Virus record (IMG/VR): IMGVR_UViG_3300028666_000113
Coordinates: 1 to 21,685 of that record
Strand: one strand, 5' to 3'
Length of the DNA: 21,685 bases
From: a virus
The notes beneath the pieces are model-generated. The model was given only the letters and a program-made list of their open reading frames with translations. It did not search any database and was not told where the DNA came from. Made by a program: the position numbers and the translations under genes. The number at the start of each line of letters is the position of its first letter. The first letter of the stretch is position 1. Of this stretch, positions 9,190 through 20,963 are shown piece after piece.

Positions 9190-9981
9190 ATGCCTGTCGT
9201 CGCCGCCTTCTGGCCGAAGCAGGTGACGTCGTCGTTCGATCCGTCGGCCGTCGCCATCATCGCCGCGCTCACCACGCCGCCGACGCCTATGCGCGCGGCG
9301 ATGATCAATGCAGCGATCGTCGGGTTGAAGAATTCGGGCATCTGGGCGATTACGGACCGCGTATTCTTCCTCGCCGCGGCCAATCAGCAAGCCTCGCTGA
9401 TTGACTGGAAAACCGCAGCAAATCCGATGATGAAGACTGGCTCGTCGGCAAATCCGTCGTTCGTAGCCGACACCGGCTGGACGTCGAACGCAAATTCCTA
9501 TCTTGACACCGGCTTCAATCCGTCGACGGCTGGCGGCAGTTTCGCTCAGAATAGCGCCAGCTTTGTCGTTGGTTCGGCGACTGATATTGCCGAAGCGTCG
9601 AACTCCTATGCGATCGCCGGCAATACTACAACCAAGATCACGACGCGGCGCGCGACGGACGGTCTCTTCAATGCGGTCCCCAATGCCAGCCTGAGTGTGA
9701 ATTATGGCGCGACGGTTAACGGCAAAGGTTTGTTTGGATGGACGCGCACGGTTTCATCCGCCGCGATCGGCTATCGAAACGGCGGCGCCGGCGTTTCTCA
9801 TTCGAGCACATCGACCGCGCTTACCAATGCCACGATCAAAGCTTTGACGGCGGACGGCAGCCTTCTCTCGGCTGATACGCTCAGTTTCCTCTATATCGGC
9901 GGTCCGTTGACAGCGGCCCAACAGGCGGCGCTATGGGCGATTTATAGCGCCTGGCGCGGTGGTCAGGGAGCCACGCCATGA
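9190..9981 (+). CDS. LamG-like adhesin or head-fibre candidate
   Basis: A 263-aa protein. The middle (about 100-240) looks like a LamG/concanavalin-type jelly roll: S-Y-L-D-T-G-F-N-P, then Q-N-S-A-S-F-V-V, several G-x-x-x-K-G-L-F-G-W-type strands, F-L-Y-I-G-G-P-L-T near the end, and a closing helix L-T-A-A-Q-Q-A-A-L-W-A-I-Y-S-A-W. This set is common in phage appendage and minor virion proteins that bind sugars, from my recollection. No signal peptide is expected or seen. The gene is in the accessory block, not with the tail tip, and overlaps the connector gene by ATGA. It could form a capsid- or neck-attached fibre. Confidence 0.6.
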   Translation: MPVVAAFWPKQVTSSFDPSAVAIIAALTTPPTPMRAAMINAAIVGLKNSGIWAITDRVFFLAAANQQASLIDWKTAANPMMKTGSSANPSFVADTGWTSNANSYLDTGFNPSTAGGSFAQNSASFVVGSATDIAEASNSYAIAGNTTTKITTRRATDGLFNAVPNASLSVNYGATVNGKGLFGWTRTVSSAAIGYRNGGAGVSHSSTSTALTNATIKALTADGSLLSADTLSFLYIGGPLTAAQQAALWAIYSAWRGGQGATP

Positions 9982-10889
9982 CGGTTACGATCTCCAAGGT
10001 CATCAACGCGCCGGCGGCTTCGCAGGATCTCACGACACTCGCGATCGTGCGTGACGAACTGAACCTCAAGTCGACCGACACTTCGCAGGACGCATGGCTA
10101 TCGCGATCGATCACTCAGGCCTCAGCGGTCTTCGCGCGCGCCTGCAATCGGGTGTTCTGGCCGGAACTGATCACCGAGACGCAGCAAATTCAGCAGGACC
10201 CCTATCCGCAGCAGACGCCGGGCGGTGTCGCGCCGCTCGTGCTCACGCGCTGGCCGCTCGTCGCCGTGAACTCGGTCGCTCAAATCTATCCGATCAATTT
10301 TAACCAGCCCCTCACTGTCGATCTCGACTACTCGATCAATACTGAGAATGGCGCGCTGACGCGGCTCAACCGCTTCACCGGCGTCGCGGTGACGTGGGAG
10401 GCGGTCCCGACCATCATCAACTATATCGCGGGATATGGGTCGCTCGTTGCAGAGCCGCAGACCGTGCCGGCGTCGCCATACCAGATCGTGCCGGCAAACG
10501 CGTCTGTGTTCTCCTTCGACAATGGCGTGAACTACGCGAGCGGCGGCGCATTTACGAAGGTGACGGGTACGCCGTCCGTCGCCGGCACTTATGCGCTGAG
10601 TCAGGTCAACAATGCCTGGACCTATACGTTTGCGCCGGCGGACCAGGGTGCATCGGTTCTGCCCAACTATGCCTATGCGAATATCCCGGCCGATCTTGTC
10701 GAGGCGTCGCTGCGGTTCATCACCGGACGGTTCTGGAGCAAGGACCGCGATCCGAACTTGATGTCGATCGACCAGCCGAACCTCGGCTCGAAACGTTTCT
10801 GGGTGAACAGCCAGACCGGCGAGAATGGCGCGATCCCGCCTGAGATCATGTCTCTGCTCACGCCATATCGCGTGCCGGCGATCGCCTGA
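9978..10889 (+). CDS. Head-tail connector (gp6-like adaptor) with inserted domain
   Basis: Head completion or adaptor protein, 303 aa, larger than usual for the family. The N-terminal part (L-A-I-V-R-D-E-L-N-L-K, then W-L-S-R-S-I-T-Q-A-S-A-V-F-A-R-A-C-N-R-V-F) and the late I-P-A-D-L-V-E-A-S-L-R-F-I-T-G-R-F match the helical core of gp6-like connectors that bind under the portal. Between them are beta-rich segments, and residues about 165-234 are an inserted module also present in the tail tube protein. The C-terminus contains S-L-L-T-P-Y-R-V-P, typical of the end of the family. Start and stop both overlap neighbours (ATGA, TGATG). Confidence 0.85.
   Translation: MTVTISKVINAPAASQDLTTLAIVRDELNLKSTDTSQDAWLSRSITQASAVFARACNRVFWPELITETQQIQQDPYPQQTPGGVAPLVLTRWPLVAVNSVAQIYPINFNQPLTVDLDYSINTENGALTRLNRFTGVAVTWEAVPTIINYIAGYGSLVAEPQTVPASPYQIVPANASVFSFDNGVNYASGGAFTKVTGTPSVAGTYALSQVNNAWTYTFAPADQGASVLPNYAYANIPADLVEASLRFITGRFWSKDRDPNLMSIDQPNLGSKRFWVNSQTGENGAIPPEIMSLLTPYRVPAIA
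10470..10679 (+). repeat. Passenger domain, copy 1, in the connector gene
   Basis: About 70 codons beginning S-P-Y-Q-I-V-P and ending near Y-A-Y-A-N. Shared landmarks with copy 2 in the tail tube: P-Y-Q-I-x-P, a G-V, P-x-x-G-x-Y, Y-T-F-x-x-A-D-x-G and a final x-Y-x-Y strand. The spacing of the landmarks is nearly the same. The similarity is at protein level; the DNA has diverged. Confidence 0.65.
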
Positions 10890-11380
10890 TGGCCGATACG
10901 ATCGGCGTCAAAATCGACGGCGACCTGAAACTCGGTCTCCGGCTCGATCAGTTTCCCCATGCGCTGCGCGCGCAGCTCAGGACGCGTATCAAGGAGTTGA
11001 TCGAGGCGCTGGCTGCCGCCGTGAGGGCGAAAATCCCCCATAAGAGCGGAAGCCTACAGAGCAAGGTCTCCGTTATCGTCTACAACAACGAGAAGTCTGT
11101 TCGGGGACGGATGTTCTTCTCGGGCGACTGGGCCAAGGCCGCCGCGCTCGAATATGGCGGCGCCGGAAGAGCATTCGAGGTGAAGGGGCATACGATGCGC
11201 CTCGACCATGTCTTCGGGAACAGCTTGACCGCGCCGCTCAATGTCTTCGTGGAGGCACATTCCCGCTCGACGCAGATAGCGGCGCGGCGATTCATCCGCA
11301 ATACGACATCTGCGATGAGCGATGAGGTCGCCGCCGATCTCCAGGCCGTCGTCGATCAGACAGCGAAGAACGATGCATGA
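10889..11380 (+). CDS. Neck / head-tail joining protein, HK97 gp10-like
   Basis: A 163-aa protein of the HK97 gp10-like family, which closes the head and joins it to the tail. Seen: N-terminal strand G-V-K-I-D-G-D-L-K-L-G, a helix, P-H-K-S-G-S-L-Q-S-K-V (the usual P-x-x-[TS]-G-x-L-[KR] motif), A-A-A-L-E-Y-G-G-A-G (the x-x-x-E-[FY]-G motif), and a long C-terminal helix. Length is normal. Start overlaps the connector stop in TGATG, and the stop overlaps the next start by ATGA. Confidence 0.88.
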   Translation: MADTIGVKIDGDLKLGLRLDQFPHALRAQLRTRIKELIEALAAAVRAKIPHKSGSLQSKVSVIVYNNEKSVRGRMFFSGDWAKAAALEYGGAGRAFEVKGHTMRLDHVFGNSLTAPLNVFVEAHSRSTQIAARRFIRNTTSAMSDEVAADLQAVVDQTAKNDA

Positions 11381-12009
11381 ATATCGATCCGGAAACCGTT
11401 CTTTCCGCGCTGTTCGCGCTCATCACGAATTCGGTCGTGGTGAACTTCACGGGACAGGCACATAGCGGTTCGGCCACAATCACGGGTGTGAGTTCTGTTG
11501 CCGGACTGTTCACTGGGCTCCCGGTGTTCGGGTCCGGCGTTCCCAATCTCGCGGTCATCGAGTCTTTCGATCCGATCGCGCTCACCTGCACGCTCGACCA
11601 GAACCTGACGTCGAATAGCGATCCCGGCGCCGCCTTCGCGACCGGGTTTCTGACGTCGAGCCGTCGTCTCAGGCTGTGGGCGGAGACGCCCGAGCAGCCC
11701 GCGATCTTCCTGCGCCATACCGACGACGACGACACCTACAATCAGACCGTCATGCAGAAGACCGTCATCAGCGCCGAAATCTGGATTTATTCGCAGGCCG
11801 GCAAGGATCCGGATGCCGCGCCGGACGTCACGCTGAACAATCTCGCAAAATGCGTCCGCAGCGCGCTCGCAATGGACGTCAGGGGCCGGCCGCAGACGCT
11901 CGGCGGCCTCGTCCAATGGGCGCGCATCGAAGGGCGCAGTGAATACGATCCCGGTGACCTGGATAATCAGAGCAAGGCACTGATCCCGGTCAAGATTTTG
12001 TGTCCTTGA
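11377..12009 (+). CDS. Tail terminator (gpU-like) with inserted domain
   Basis: Tail completion or terminator protein, 210 aa, longer than the roughly 140 aa usual for the family. The core is split: residues 1-23 (V-L-S-A-L-F-A-L-I-T-N-S) and 94-210 (S-S-R-R-L-R-L-W-A-E-T, then Q-P-A-I-F-L-R-H, V-I-S-A-E-I-W-I-Y, and a final K-A-L-I-P-V-K-I-L). Residues 24-93 are a beta-rich module unlike the core. The protein caps the tail tube and sets where it joins the neck. ATGA overlap with the gene before; 24 bases to the tail tube gene. Confidence 0.82.
   Translation: MNIDPETVLSALFALITNSVVVNFTGQAHSGSATITGVSSVAGLFTGLPVFGSGVPNLAVIESFDPIALTCTLDQNLTSNSDPGAAFATGFLTSSRRLRLWAETPEQPAIFLRHTDDDDTYNQTVMQKTVISAEIWIYSQAGKDPDAAPDVTLNNLAKCVRSALAMDVRGRPQTLGGLVQWARIEGRSEYDPGDLDNQSKALIPVKILCP
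11446..11655 (+). other. Inserted beta-rich module in the tail terminator
   Basis: About 70 codons with S-G-S-A-T-I-T-G-V-S-S, then G-L-F-T-G-L-P-V-F-G-S-G-V-P and C-T-L-D-Q-N-L-T-S-N. This matches a module I recall from many phage and surface proteins (G-S-x-x-I-T-x-[LV]-S-S-x-x-G-L-x-x-G-x-x-V-x-G-x-G-[IV]-P). It differs from the passenger shared by connector and tube and lies in a loop of the terminator core. Confidence 0.6.
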
Positions 12010-12033
12010 GCGACCCGCAAACAGGAGAGCAGC

Positions 12034-12813
12034 ATGCCCAACACGAACACCGTCCCGCAGGGTCTCTTCGGGCCCGGCATCCTCTACGTCACGCGCACCG
12101 ACATCGCGAATGCGACGCCGGTCAATATCGGCTACATCAACGAATTCTCGACCGACATGACCTTCTCCACGAAGGAATTGTACGGCCAGAACCAGCTGCC
12201 GCTGCTCGTTGCGCGCGGCACCGCCAAGCTCACCGGCAAAATGAAGGCGGCGACCATGTCAGGCGTCGCCCTCAACAATGTGATGCTCGGCGATACCGTG
12301 ACGAACGGGACGCAGTACGATTTGGCCGCGAGCCCGGCGACGCCGATCCCGACCACGCCCTACCAGATCACGCCGACCGTACCGAGTTCGGGAACTTGGA
12401 ACAGCGATCTCGGCGTCATCAATGCCGCCACCGGCGAACCTCTGACGCTGGTCGCGAGCTCGCCGGCCGCCGGGCAGTATTCGGTCTCTGCTGGCGTCTA
12501 CACGTTTGCCTCGGCCGACCACGGCTCGGGCATCAGCGTGATCATCAATTTCTCCTATTCGTTCACGTCCGGCGCCACCGGCCTGAACATTGCGATCAAC
12601 AACCAGCTGATCGGCTACACGCCGACGTTCCAGCTCGACTATAAGACCGCGCTCTATGGTGCGACCTACTACCTGCGCATCTATCAGGCCATCTGCAACA
12701 AGTGGACGATGGGCCATAAGCTCGAGGACTTCGCCATGCCCGAATTCGATTTCAGTTTCTTCGCGAATGCGCAGCAGCAGATCGGGCTCATCAGCCTGGC
12801 GACGCAGGCGTAA
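12034..12813 (+). CDS. Major tail tube protein with inserted domain
   Basis: Major tail protein, 259 aa, which stacks in rings around the tape measure to form the tube. N-terminus N-T-V-P-Q-G-L-F-G-P-G-I-L-Y-V-T, with I-G-Y-I-N-E-F-S-T-D and A-K-L-T-G-K-M-K-A-A as seen in related siphophage tubes. Residues about 106-178 are the passenger module also found in the connector; afterwards the core resumes with I-A-I-N-N-Q-L-I-G-Y-T-P-T-F-Q-L. The end, F-A-M-P-E-F-D-F-S-F-F-A-N, is the usual closing strand. AGGAG six bases before ATG fits high expression. In a tube this module would point outwards. Confidence 0.88.
   Translation: MPNTNTVPQGLFGPGILYVTRTDIANATPVNIGYINEFSTDMTFSTKELYGQNQLPLLVARGTAKLTGKMKAATMSGVALNNVMLGDTVTNGTQYDLAASPATPIPTTPYQITPTVPSSGTWNSDLGVINAATGEPLTLVASSPAAGQYSVSAGVYTFASADHGSGISVIINFSYSFTSGATGLNIAINNQLIGYTPTFQLDYKTALYGATYYLRIYQAICNKWTMGHKLEDFAMPEFDFSFFANAQQQIGLISLATQA
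12349..12567 (+). repeat. Passenger domain, copy 2, in the tail tube gene
   Basis: About 73 codons beginning near T-P-Y-Q-I-T-P and ending F-S-Y-S-F. It aligns with the copy in the connector through P-Y-Q-I, G-V, P-x-x-G-x-Y-x-[LV]-S and Y-T-F-x-[PS]-A-D-x-G. It looks Ig-like or similar beta-sandwich, from strand pattern alone. Confidence 0.65.
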
Positions 12814-16078: not shown

Positions 16079-16741
16079 ATGACGCTTCCCGTCTATCCGG
16101 ACCGCACCGTATTGCCCGGACTCGGTTTCAGCACGAAATGGTCGCCGGTATTTTTCAACATGCCGACTCAGACGGCGGCTGCCGGCGCGGACATCGATCT
16201 GGCGCTGGCCGCGACGCCGCTACACGACTTCGAGTTGACTTACGAAGTCTTGCGCGACGCCGGGCGCAATACGCTCGAGGCGTCCGAATTCAGGACGATG
16301 ATGGGGTTTCACCTTCAGCTGGGCGGCACGGTCGGACGATTCTTTTTCAAGAACATCGATGACTTCTCCGTGTCGCAGCAGCTCATCGGCGTTGGCGACG
16401 GCGTGACGACGGCGTTCGTTCTCACGCGCACCTATGGACTCGGCGGCTACTCAGGCACCGAGCCGGTCGGCGGCGTCAACACCGCCTATCCGTTCAATGT
16501 CTATCTCGGCGACAGCGCGACGCCCGCCGATCCGTCGAGCTACACGCTTTCGACGACGATGCCCTGCCAGCAGATCGTGACGTTCGGTGTCGCGCCGCTG
16601 CTCGGTCAGAACGTCCGCGTGGACATGAACTATTGGTACTATTGCAAGCTCGCGGACAACAGCAACACGTTCGAGAAATTCATGAATCGTCTGTGGCTGC
16701 TGAACAAGGTCAAATTGCATAGCTGCCGGGCGGGCGCTTAA
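16079..16741 (+). CDS. Distal tail protein, DUF2460 (RcGTA g12-like)
   Basis: A 220-aa DUF2460-family protein, the distal tail protein that joins tube to hub in the Rhodobacter gene transfer agent. Markers: F-S-T-K-W-S-P-V-F near the start, R-N-T-L-E-A-S-E-F-R, F-F-F-K-N-I-D-D-F, then G-V-G-D-G-V-T-T-A-F-V-L-T-R-T-Y-G and V-T-F-G-V-A-P-L-L-G-Q-N-V, and N-T-F-E-K-F-M-N-R-L-W close to the end. Starts two bases after the tape measure stop, and its stop is followed at once by the GTG of the next gene, so the tail-tip genes are coupled. Confidence 0.92.
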   Translation: MTLPVYPDRTVLPGLGFSTKWSPVFFNMPTQTAAAGADIDLALAATPLHDFELTYEVLRDAGRNTLEASEFRTMMGFHLQLGGTVGRFFFKNIDDFSVSQQLIGVGDGVTTAFVLTRTYGLGGYSGTEPVGGVNTAYPFNVYLGDSATPADPSSYTLSTTMPCQQIVTFGVAPLLGQNVRVDMNYWYYCKLADNSNTFEKFMNRLWLLNKVKLHSCRAGA

Positions 16742-17626: not shown

Positions 17627-18204
17627 TGTACGTGCATGAGACCCTCGCGCGCGACGGCGCGAAGGTGATCGTGTTCCCCACCGGACGCTCGGCCGAGACG
17701 CACATCTTCGGAAGCGAAGAGGAAGCAGAGGCGCGGCTGCGCTTCGTTTCCGAAGGGCTGACGTGGGTGGGGACGCCGTTCGCCGATTGCGCCGATGTCA
17801 AGGGTCCGCGCGGCGCCGTCGATTGCGCAATGCTCCTTGTGCGCTGTTCAGTCGACACCGGGCTTCTGCCGCCGTTCGACCCGCGCCCCTATCGCCCTCG
17901 CCATATGCTGCACCGCACGGAGCAGAAGTTTCTCGGCTGGGTGCAGGACAAGCTTGGTGGCATGGAGGTCGATGCGCCGCGGCTGGGCGACGTCATCGTC
18001 TGGCAGTTCGGCAAGGTGTTTTCGCACGGTGCGATCCTGATCAATGCGACGGAGGTAGTGCACGCCTACGGCACGGCGCGCATGTGCCTGGTTTCGCGGC
18101 GCGACGAGGACCTGCTGAAGCATATGTCGCTTGGCCATCAGAATTTCCCGCGGCCGGTCAAATATTTCGACATTTGGAAGGGACGCAAATGGGCGCGATC
18201 CTAG
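17626..18204 (+). CDS. NlpC/P60-type tail peptidase
   Basis: A 192-aa cysteine peptidase of the tail tip (RcGTA g14-like), expected to cut peptidoglycan peptides during DNA entry. Predicted catalytic residues: C67 in G-A-V-D-C-A-M-L-L, H134 in V-F-S-H-G-A-I-L-I, and H146 in V-V-H-A-Y-G as the third polar residue. All are present, so the enzyme should be active. No signal peptide, as expected for a virion component. ATG 17626 (TGATG with the hub stop) is chosen over an upstream start at 17554 which would overlap the hub's conserved C-terminus. It overlaps the next gene by 16 bases. Confidence 0.92.
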   Translation: MYVHETLARDGAKVIVFPTGRSAETHIFGSEEEAEARLRFVSEGLTWVGTPFADCADVKGPRGAVDCAMLLVRCSVDTGLLPPFDPRPYRPRHMLHRTEQKFLGWVQDKLGGMEVDAPRLGDVIVWQFGKVFSHGAILINATEVVHAYGTARMCLVSRRDEDLLKHMSLGHQNFPRPVKYFDIWKGRKWARS

Positions 18205-20963
18205 GGATCGGAGGCGGCGCCCAGTCGCAGAAGACCATCGTCTATTCCGGGCTCAACGTCAGCTCGTCGCGCATGGACTTGCCGGTCCCGATCTTCTGGG
18301 GCCAACGCCGCATCAGTACCAACGCGATTTGGTACAACAATTTCAAGAAACATCCCGTCAGCGCCAAGGGAAAGGGCGCCAGCAAAGGCACGCAATACGA
18401 TTATACCGCCGCGACGGCGACCGCGCTCAGCGAGGGGCCGATCGACTCGATCGTCAATGTCTGGGCCGCCGGCTCGACGACGACGACGACGACGCTCGCC
18501 AAACTCAATATGACGCTGTTCACCGGGACCGCGGCGCAGTCGCCATGGTCGTTCGTTTCGACGAACTTTCCAGCTCAGGCCCGCTCCTATGGACTGACGG
18601 CCTACCTCGCCTGCTCGAACCAGGATCTCGGGGAGTCGGCAACGATCCCCGACAATGCGTTTGAGTGTGTCCGCTCGAACGGCTTCGCCTACACGCACAC
18701 GACCAACGGCTGGATCGATCCGGCGACGCATATCTCGACCTCCGCGATCGACGTCCTGCTGTCGGATTGCCTCGTCGATCTGGTTACGAATCCCCAATAT
18801 GGCCAACTTCTGGAAGCCGGAGACATCGCGAGTACCACGCAATGGGCGACGTATATGCGGGCGCAGGGGCTCTTCTTCTCGCCGCTGCTGAACTCGCAGG
18901 TGACCGCGACGTCTCTGTTCGATCGCTGGGCGCAGCTATCGAATACGTGGATTTACTGGTCGGGGACCCAGCTTCAGTTCGTGCCGTTGGGCGATTCAAC
19001 AGTCACCGGAAATGGCGTGACATACACGCCGGACAATGCGATCGCCTACGATCTTGGCCCGGGCGACTTCATCGGCGATGAGCCTGTTTCCGTCGCGCGC
19101 ATGGATCCTGCGGACTGCTTCAATCGCACAGTCCTACAGATTACCGACCGAACGATCGGGTATGTCTCGAACCCGATCGAGTTCAAGGACCAAACGCTCG
19201 TCGACACCTACGGTCTGCGCGACCAGTCGAGCACCCAGGCCGACGAGATTTGCGATCCCGTCGTGGGCGCGATCGCGGCGCAGCTCATCGGCCGGCGCGC
19301 GGCCTATGTGCGCAATACCTATTCCTTCAAGACGTCCTATCGCTTTATCCGTTGCCTGCCTGGCACTCCGCTGACGCTGACCGATCCGAATATCGGCATC
19401 AACAAGATGCGCGTGCGCGTGGCGACGATCGAGGAAGCGGACGACGGATCGCTCGCTTTCACTTGCGAGGAATTTCCAAGCCTGGTCGGCACGTTTTCGC
19501 CGACCGGCTCGTCTCTCGCCGGCGCGCCAACCAATCCCAATGAGTATGTCGATCCCGGCAGCGTCAACACGCCGGCAATATTGGAGCCCGATGCATCGTT
19601 CACCGGGGGGTTGCCGCAGATCGTCATTGCAGCATCGGGCGGCCCGAACTGGGGGGGATGTTTCGTCACCATCTCGTTCGATGGGACTGAATATTCGACG
19701 ATCGGAAGGATCGTGGCGCCGGCGGTCCAGGGCGTCCTGACGTCCACTCTGCCGAACCACGCGGATCCCGATACCGTCGATACGCTGGCGGTCGATTGTA
19801 CCGAAAGTCTGTCGCTTCCGACGCCAGTGACCAATGCGGACGCCGACGCGTTGCGCACAATTAGTTGGCTGAGTGCGCAACCGGCGCTCGTGAGCGGTTC
19901 TTATGTCGTACCGACCGTCGGCGAAATGCTGGCGTTCGGCGATGTATCGGCGACCGGCACCTATGCCGCGAACCTCACCTATCTGCGGCGCGGCCAATAT
20001 GGCTTCGCGCCTTCCTCGCATGCATCGGGCGATCAGTTCACGGTCATCGACGTCGTCGGCTCGACCGGCACATCGCTCGTCTACGATTTGCCGCCGCAAT
20101 ACATCGGCCAGCCGATCTATATCAAACTCCTCTCCTATAACGCCTTTGGAAACGAGGTTCAGGATCCGAGCGCGGTGCTCGAATACAAATACACTCCGAC
20201 CGGCCTCGGCTATGGCACTGGAACCGGCGGTGTTCCCAAGACGCCGACCGGCCTCATCGTGGTGTCTGGTAACGGGCAGGACAACATCGCGTGGAACGCG
20301 AACGATGCCGTTGACAACGTCTCGGCGTATCAACTCTATGCCGCCGTCGGGCCCGGCGGTTCTTTCGGATCGGCGTCGCTTATCTTCGACGGCAAGGCCA
20401 CGCATTTCGTATGGCCTGGCCGAACCGACGGCGACGAATGGACTTATTTCGTCGTCGCGGTAAACGCGGTGGGGCCGTCGCCGCACACGTCCGGCGTCGA
20501 CGCGACCGCCGTGGGCATCGTCACTGACCAGATCGTACCTGGAGCGATCTCCTCGGCGACAACGCTTGGGCCGATGGATTGGGTTTCGCCGGCGGTCTCG
20601 CCGGCGGTGGAAACGAACTTCTTCGGCGGCCTCGGCACGACATATCTCGATCTGGGCGCCGTGCCGCCGGCTGGAACCTATGTCATCCTGTCGCTCAACG
20701 GCTATGTTCAGCGCAACACCGGCCGCGACCCGATCGTCACGACGCGCATCTATCGCGGCATCTTCGGCACCGGATCGCCCGTTCTGATCGCCACGGGCGC
20801 CGTCGGCGGCGGCTCCGACAACCACTTCATGCCGATCGTGTGCAGCGGACCCGACTATGCGCCGGGCCGATATTACACCGCGACGATCGAGACCGACTCT
20901 GTGTCGCCGCCGCCGCTTTCGGAGATTTATGGCGCGATGACCGCGCAGGTCTTCAAGCGCTGA
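18189..20963 (+). CDS. Large tail-tip / host-recognition protein with FnIII domain
   Basis: Tip protein of 924 aa in the position of RcGTA g15 and lambda J. The N-terminus is Gly-rich (M-G-A-I-L-G-I-G-G-G-A) with P-I-F-W-G-Q-R-R-I. Residues about 300-428 look like the Phage-tail_3/gpJ core: D-P-A-D-C-F-N-R-T-V, I-E-F-K-D, A-A-Q-L-I-G-R-R-A-A-Y-V-R-N-T-Y, and an A-T-I-E-E-A-D-D-G-S-L end. An FnIII-like domain sits at about 683-785 (P-K-T-P-T-G-L, then Y-F-V-V-A-V-N-A-V-G-P-S). The C-terminal 140 residues are strand-rich and may bind a receptor. Start ATG 18189 has a GGAAGGG upstream; the open frame from 17763 is out-of-frame reading of the peptidase gene. It has a Thr6 run and a G7 tract. Confidence 0.88.
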   Translation: MGAILGIGGGAQSQKTIVYSGLNVSSSRMDLPVPIFWGQRRISTNAIWYNNFKKHPVSAKGKGASKGTQYDYTAATATALSEGPIDSIVNVWAAGSTTTTTTLAKLNMTLFTGTAAQSPWSFVSTNFPAQARSYGLTAYLACSNQDLGESATIPDNAFECVRSNGFAYTHTTNGWIDPATHISTSAIDVLLSDCLVDLVTNPQYGQLLEAGDIASTTQWATYMRAQGLFFSPLLNSQVTATSLFDRWAQLSNTWIYWSGTQLQFVPLGDSTVTGNGVTYTPDNAIAYDLGPGDFIGDEPVSVARMDPADCFNRTVLQITDRTIGYVSNPIEFKDQTLVDTYGLRDQSSTQADEICDPVVGAIAAQLIGRRAAYVRNTYSFKTSYRFIRCLPGTPLTLTDPNIGINKMRVRVATIEEADDGSLAFTCEEFPSLVGTFSPTGSSLAGAPTNPNEYVDPGSVNTPAILEPDASFTGGLPQIVIAASGGPNWGGCFVTISFDGTEYSTIGRIVAPAVQGVLTSTLPNHADPDTVDTLAVDCTESLSLPTPVTNADADALRTISWLSAQPALVSGSYVVPTVGEMLAFGDVSATGTYAANLTYLRRGQYGFAPSSHASGDQFTVIDVVGSTGTSLVYDLPPQYIGQPIYIKLLSYNAFGNEVQDPSAVLEYKYTPTGLGYGTGTGGVPKTPTGLIVVSGNGQDNIAWNANDAVDNVSAYQLYAAVGPGGSFGSASLIFDGKATHFVWPGRTDGDEWTYFVVAVNAVGPSPHTSGVDATAVGIVTDQIVPGAISSATTLGPMDWVSPAVSPAVETNFFGGLGTTYLDLGAVPPAGTYVILSLNGYVQRNTGRDPIVTTRIYRGIFGTGSPVLIATGAVGGGSDNHFMPIVCSGPDYAPGRYYTATIETDSVSPPPLSEIYGAMTAQVFKR
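18477..18494 (+). repeat. Short ACG trinucleotide repeat
   Basis: Six consecutive ACG codons encode Thr6 in the tail-tip protein. Changes in copy number would keep the frame. Short enough to be chance in this GC-rich DNA. Confidence 0.5.

Follow-up and report, generated by a model that had tools for sequence, protein, structure and literature searches.

A shared accessory domain in the head-tail connector and the tail tube of a siphophage-like virus

Phage virion proteins are known to carry promiscuous immunoglobulin-like (Ig-like) domains, among them Big_1, Big_2, I-set and FN3 (Fraser et al. 2006, as cited in PMC9022992 and PMC7385642), and such domains have been described in tail tubes and in a neck adaptor. 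In the tail tube of phage YSD1, an Ig-like domain 2 inserted between alpha1 and beta4 wraps around the neighbouring subunits "like a latch", with about 950 square angstroms buried for each of them, and displays a weak similarity to adhesion proteins and to baseplate proteins of phages and type VI secretion systems (PMC7385642). In JBD30, a tube helix at residues 77-83 precedes an Ig-like decoration domain (88-175) that projects tangentially (PMC11445458). At the neck, the adaptors of RcGTA, T5, 812 and R4C possess a beta attachment domain besides their helices, located outside and against the capsid in RcGTA, 812 and R4C (PMC7296036 and PMC12886913 for the first two); in R4C this domain is Ig-like and was assigned to local stability, not adsorption, being so close to the head (PMC10276861). 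Here, we analysed a stretch of viral DNA of 21,685 bases (hereafter the window), a fragment of virus record G000 (IMG/VR IMGVR_UViG_3300028666_000113) with a siphophage-like order of morphogenesis genes, in which a single homologous domain of about 75 residues, hereafter module A, is carried by two otherwise unrelated virion proteins, the connector ring and the tail tube. The genes and the two copies of the module are located in the window as follows.

9978..10889, + strand: head-tail connector (adaptor) gene, 303 amino acids, recognised from its open reading frame (ORF), phrog_442, an AlphaFold2 model and RcGTA and T5 fold matches
10461..10682, + strand: module A, connector copy, residues about 162-235, delimited by BLASTP, profile-profile comparison and empty sites in homologues
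12034..12813, + strand: major tail tube gene, 259 amino acids, recognised from its ORF, phrog_8234, an AlphaFold2 model and tube fold matches
12343..12564, + strand: module A, tail-tube copy, residues about 104-177, after the core helix (77-85), delimited by BLASTP, profile-profile comparison, model and motifs; its position is that of YSD1 domain 2 and of the JBD30 decoration domain

Comparison of the two whole proteins by BLASTP aligned connector residues 156-234 with tube residues 97-176 (41% identity, E 5e-9), all other segments having E values of 7.5 or worse. As a query in the 21.7-kb record, the connector matched itself and the tube module and nothing further, and the tube family profile phrog_8234 matched the connector at residues 168-236 only (profile positions 112-177, E 2.1e-7). 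Alignments of 47 connectors and 69 tubes, gathered from IMG/VR contigs and the window, allowed a profile-profile comparison of 11 connector modules with the 69 tube modules, which gave a probability of 99.6% (E 7.8e-24, score 129.7 over 71 columns). By contrast, no match was found between the connector core and the tube core (probability 0.13%), nor between module A and the core of the other protein (0.03-0.05%). The two copies have in common the motifs PY/F-q-i/v ... D-x-GV ... P-x-x-GqY ... YtF-x-x-aD. Small residues abound in the module and its alignment contains gaps, as would be expected from convergence of low-complexity Gly/Thr/Ser-rich beta sequence, but this explanation is hardly credible: the real score compares with a maximum of 12.0 among 50 column-shuffled controls that kept composition, the module yields nothing against the other core, and all 25 of 25 diverse modules A match phrog_8234. 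Connector residues 162-235 and tube residues 104-177 (approximate limits) are thus confirmed as one homologous domain. The original prediction, made from the letters of the window, had proposed the same domain within two unrelated proteins whose cores continue on either side of it, and holds on each of these points; the significant profile-profile match that it had set as a test was obtained. It had also described the shared motifs as identical in order and spacing; the motifs are indeed shared, but their spacing is not identical, BLASTP needing 11 gap positions over 85 columns.

The connector core, which matches the head-tail adaptor family phrog_442 (profile search, E 1.7e-12), continues on both sides of the module. 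In a 15-sequence alignment, A is an insert that follows a core strand with aGY at its end and precedes a helix that begins with iPaDl, and the relatives L016 and L017 (locus handles of our collection) are devoid of exactly this stretch, aligning straight across the site. The median core span is 282 residues in connectors with A, versus 189.5 in those without insert, and the flanks of the insert are recurrent among distinct A-bearing connectors, with P-x-(x)-[LIV] just downstream in 93/95 and (A/G)xG[YF] just upstream in 84/95. The window connector has no Pfam match (E up to 1), and a search of Pfam and NCBIfam (each E up to 1) returned no match for connector or tube, whereas the connector homologues L018 and L016 pass the cut-off of PF05135.

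The presence of A in connectors is sporadic. Counting full-length proteins only, with near-identical C-termini removed and over all loci, the 59 connectors of viral contigs ascertained through tube or connector comprise 9 with A, 13 with a second module (B, described below) and 37 with neither, and the 51 of genome contigs comprise 14, 1 and 36, respectively. Phage records contributed two connectors, both with A. Among contigs found through the module itself, 68 of 75 connectors carry A and 7 neither; this set, biased by design, was kept out of the sum, as was the window's own connector. Over the 110 connectors of loci selected independently of the module, A was therefore found in 23, B in 14 and neither in 73. 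The connector copy, which had been considered unusual, is indeed uncommon, but as it is not unique the term is not supported as worded. As a side observation, the matching of the tube profile by connectors through A is a source of misannotation.

The situation is different in the tail tube (phrog_8234, E 9.2e-57 in a profile search), where A is a fixture, being present in all 72 distinct tubes above 200 amino acids of the viral set; an optional passenger in the tube is not borne out. It was also found in 74/74 tubes of the genome set, 5/5 of the phage records and 58/59 of the module-found set, counts to be read with the caution that one of the two genome-scan patterns, like one pattern of the first viral scan, lay inside module A, the larger viral scan relying on core patterns only. 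The sole A-less tube of the module-found set is an ORF of 219 amino acids (L192). Furthermore, conservation in the tubes is higher over A than over the core (majority residue 0.666 and 0.594, respectively; pairwise identity 0.544 and 0.470), which points to a structural role. Two peculiarities were observed among the tubes. One that looked A-less (L173:5625-6491) is a gene interrupted by an inverted piece, either an assembly error or a real inversion, the inner piece still containing A; and L029 and L044 display two successive tube-like ORFs, each with A, possibly providing two tube proteins per tail.

AlphaFold2 models were produced for the connector and the tube only, the phage-record loci L020-L024 being excluded from both modelling alignments. 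The connector model reached a mean predicted local distance difference test (pLDDT) of 92.1, with 93-98 by tens over residues 161-240, and the tube model one of 90.4, with 91-97 over residues 101-170 and 86 over 171-180. Both copies of A are hence confidently modelled and follow the same order of elements, i.e. a long strand, a hairpin, a short helix (three residues in the connector) and a long strand, an indirect agreement that is based on element order, not superposition. In the connector model, a strand (145-151) is followed by the module and then by a helix (238-254). Its core has the adaptor fold, as seen in its matches to the RcGTA adaptor 6toa_D (Z 12.0, 180 aligned residues, root-mean-square deviation (rmsd) 4.5) and to the DT57C neck chain 8hqo_P (Z 11.1, 170 aligned, rmsd 3.1), along with the T5 portal-complex chain 9ilp_a (Z 10.8) and a chain of the Mycofy1 head-to-tail interface (Z 10.4). 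When predicted viral proteins were searched with this model by Foldseek, most of the matches were adaptors of about 170-220 residues.

The tube model matches large tubes over most of their length: the SPR-type tube 8xkn_B (Z 14.6, 228 residues aligned of 242, rmsd 3.9), the Chi neck chain 8vhx_H (Z 14.1), JBD30 8rk3_f (Z 13.6) and YSD1 6xgr_A (Z 13.6, 237 aligned, rmsd 9.0, the domain orientation being different or uncertain). With smaller tubes (130-156 residues, R4C 8gtb_A among them), the match covers the core. The matches to 8xkn_B and 6xgr_A include the inserted domain, and within the model the module (104-177) lies after the core helix (77-85) and before the core resumes at about residue 184, i.e. 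inserted between a core helix and the next core strand. Separately, the best fold match of this tube, the SPR-type tube, is reported to trigger the DSR2 defence as a monomer, through its core domain.

Taken alone, the connector module (residues about 154-235 of the model) matches baseplate chains (9f4a_AM, Z 7.6; phi812 9eui_Q, 7.3; phiKZ 9xqs_A, 7.0), a chain of the TssK-TssF-TssG complex (6n38_H, Z 6.9) and residues 89-155 of 9jgh_E (Z 5.4, rmsd 2.5, 65 residues), which we read as the SPR tail tube protein from its likeness to 8xkn and 8ygm and from the literature, its listed title giving only TTP. The baseplate and TssF-complex leads agree with the similarity to baseplate proteins reported for YSD1 domain 2. 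A search of 25 modules against Pfam-A (E up to 0.1) returned seven stray families, none of which was Big_1, Big_2, I-set or FN3. Module A is probably a small, beta-rich, Ig-like accessory domain.

Besides the connector and the tube, at least two other types of tail protein contain module A. Among the large tail proteins carrying it that were tested, those of L104, L046 and L111 match Phage-tail_3, and two of them also Rcc01698_C; they are predicted to be hubs similar to RcGTA gp15. Long ORFs of L116, L128, L130, L171 and L177 contain A as well, and the Brevundimonas phages Strzyga and Polewnik carry it in three proteins, namely the connector, the tube and an 856-residue ORF in which it lies within or beside the DUF2460 part. 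Candidate prophage loci with A in both the connector and the tube were located in Methylobacterium sp. UNC378MF, Methylobacterium terricola 17Sr1-39, Methylobacterium sp. DB0501 and Methylocapsa sp. S129. For the hub and DUF2460 copies, as for module B, the identity of the fold is suggested by sequence. In the window, A is confined to the connector and tube ORFs, the hub (18204-20963) and the DUF2460 protein (16079-16741) being without it. A tblastn search of phage records with the connector module alone returned nothing at E up to 1, while the tube module retrieved 8 records; two copies of Gordonia phage Patio among these (E 0.9) were ignored as chance. Two hubs deserve mention in their own right: that of L046 (10963-12726) contains two copies of A (residues 149-217 and 272-352), and the 1356-residue hub ORF of L111 (14463-18530), from an uncultured Rhizobiales prophage, shows Hint-type matches at 80-125 and 172-237, below the Pfam cut-offs, possibly an intein or HINT insert.

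How far the module moves was addressed through two trees. On the connector-core tree (182 rows: 90 with A, 14 with B, 78 with neither), 11 state changes are needed, and A alone requires at least 8, starred branches imposing 4 of them; the tree was built quickly, many of its forks are weak and some of its branches long, and it does not distinguish gain from loss. On the module tree (248 rows), copies cluster mainly by host protein, with 9 changes, indicating that moves between proteins are rare on this scale. The idea of a mobile module finds support in the connector and in the hub and DUF2460 proteins, but not in the tube, where the copy is fixed. A recent duplication of tube A into the connector within one genome, by gene conversion or tandem copy, is highly improbable as a general explanation and largely refuted for the window, whose two copies match at the DNA level over short stretches only (the best being 24 bases at 83%) and whose own tube ranks 24th of 77 for its connector copy. 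Over the 77 phages with both copies, the score against the own tube is 127.8, versus 125.6 against others, a value reached in 266 of 5000 permutations; connector copies are hence hardly closer to the tube of their own phage than to others, which argues against recent copying. The phage of L004 may be an exception, its connector copy ranking its own tube second of 77 and falling among tube copies in the large module tree (support 97), but in a smaller tree it pairs with the connector of L003 (support 82).

The wider and less expected part of the finding is that A alternates in the connector with module B. In the 15-sequence alignment, connectors L005, L011-L015 and L018, all devoid of A, carry B about 65 core residues before the A site, after LxRWPL; B is often present in the connector of relatives in which A is absent from it. 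The window has a copy of B, elsewhere than in its connector.

11434..11646, + strand: module B, inside the terminator-like ORF 11377-12009, found by hmmsearch with a profile of connector B

This match (E 2.3e-8) was obtained with a profile built from connector B copies only, and the profiles of connector B (14 sequences) and of B in other ORFs (21 sequences) agree with a probability of 99.0% (E 4e-18). The host ORF matches phrog_8150, a family of unknown function, and nothing among PDB sequences at E up to 1; it is called terminator-like on gene-order grounds, no profile showing a terminator. A and B are unrelated by profile comparison (probabilities 0.05% and 0.08%), and the two were never seen together in one connector in any set, even with a loose threshold for the second. 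At the sequence level, two unrelated modules are therefore each common to the connector and to a single further protein of the neck or tail, the connector holding at most one of them. One could imagine that the plug-in of the connector, either that of the tube (A) or that of the terminator-like protein (B), acts as a matching code at the head-tail joint, either by contact of like with like or through an assembly partner common to both; an A/B swap would then change the part of the tail to which the neck is tuned. We regard this as unlikely, and its simple form is weakened by phages with A in the connector (the window, L003, L007 and L111), which can keep B in the terminator-like ORF.

As for the role of A, the reading that we favour, with moderate confidence, is that phages of a broad group insert this accessory domain into surface loops of ring-forming virion proteins, where it would brace the tube hexamer and the neck ring. 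In the tube, A would stand where tubes of the Chi/YSD1, SPR and JBD30 types have their inserted decoration domain (domain 2), and most likely brace the hexameric ring from outside, the latch being carried over from YSD1 domain 2. In the connector, it would be an optional insert at the joint of the capsid-facing attachment domain and the helix bundle; as the attachment domain lies outside in RcGTA, 812 and R4C, A is expected on the outer face of the neck, most likely on the outside of the 12-subunit ring, strengthening contacts between subunits or between neck and capsid, with the neighbouring subunit, the capsid or the stopper within its reach. The outward position is thus taken from solved relatives, the chain of reasoning is longer for the connector than for the tube, and the spread of A among connectors may have proceeded by recombination.

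Several observations weigh against this bracing role or the fold and history that it supposes. Most of the connectors counted (73/110) do without any insert. The fold matches of the module alone all have Z below 8, a level rated as common, and are only leads, while a PDB sequence search with the module profile, extended to E 10, retrieved no chain from a phage but only gelation-factor chains (E 2.5 and 3.4), which were taken as chance. The approximately unbiased test does not reject a topology in which all connector copies of A form one clade (p-AU 0.326), so that an old gain followed by losses is possible. The density of the DSR2 complex does not show domain 2 of SPR, which suggests that this domain is flexible there and not a rigid brace (PMC10981675), and the Ig-like domains of the capsid and tube of the mycobacteriophage Douge bind host glycans (PMC13033339).

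The case of Douge, the adsorption roles proposed for tube Ig-like domains in reviews (PMC9022992) and the presence of A towards the end of the tail, in hub and DUF2460 proteins, would all suit a second explanation, in which A is a weak binder of host-surface glycans, present in many copies along the tube and twelve at the neck, holding the virion near the cell. We consider it clearly less probable than bracing, although worth keeping in view: a domain that no distinct tube of the viral set lacks, and whose conservation exceeds that of the core, is unlike a fast-changing host-recognition surface, and the neck beside the capsid is a poor site for adsorption, as was argued for R4C. Between the two roles first proposed for the module, weak surface binding or stability, the latter fits better, given the latch of YSD1 domain 2 and the conservation of A relative to the tube core, binding being less supported. 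A third explanation, rather improbable in our view, is that A serves chiefly in assembly, where it would be a built-in chaperone or gauge against early polymerisation of the subunit, and is incidental in the finished virion. The flexibility of SPR domain 2 was seen in a monomer bound to DSR2, and A is a fixture in tubes, both of which would be expected for such a function, but A is optional in connectors, and YSD1 domain 2 buries its interface in the finished tube. Beyond these modules, an ORF of 263 amino acids directly upstream of the connector (window 9190-9981) matches parts of very large phage proteins (phrog_26223 and phrog_18498).

Our results extend the known scatter of Ig-like add-ons to a sequence-recognisable family found in the neck adaptor, tail tube, tail hub and DUF2460 protein, and invisible to Pfam and NCBIfam at the thresholds searched. 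They also reveal natural pairs, with the same tube family and a connector with A, B or nothing, in which bracing and host binding are directly testable.

Among the described systems, A resembles domain 2 of YSD1 and Chi and the decoration domain of JBD30 in its corresponding insertion site in the tube, the match of the whole tube fold and its probable nature as a beta-sandwich add-on, but there is no detectable sequence similarity, and those domains are described in the tube only in the accessible text, whereas A also occurs in adaptor, hub and DUF2460 proteins. The likeness to domain 2 of the SPbeta-like SPR tube is seen in the best tube match (8xkn_B) and in the match of the connector module to 9jgh_E, but SPR is a Bacillus phage and its sequence does not match. 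The connector core shares its fold with the RcGTA adaptor Rcc01688 and the T5 adaptor p144 (Z 12.0 and 10.8), whose chains of about 194 and 170 residues leave no room for the insert. Like Big_1, Big_2, I-set and FN3, A is a small beta domain scattered over unrelated virion proteins, but it matches none of them, and the five protein classes listed in the review omit the neck adaptor (PMC9022992). In the open-licence literature, to the extent accessible, we found no report of one domain common to adaptor and tube, and only R4C turned up as a precedent. The neck adaptor of R4C, a dodecamer, carries an Ig-like domain that belongs to none of the named Ig-like Pfam families (PMC10276861), and is comparable in this to our connector with its probably Ig-like A; there, however, the domain is the N-terminal attachment domain itself, whereas our connector retains its attachment domain and has A as an addition behind it. 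Module A is therefore a well-supported shared domain, best seen as a variant of the known phage habit of scattering Ig-like add-ons, with a partial precedent in the adaptor of R4C.

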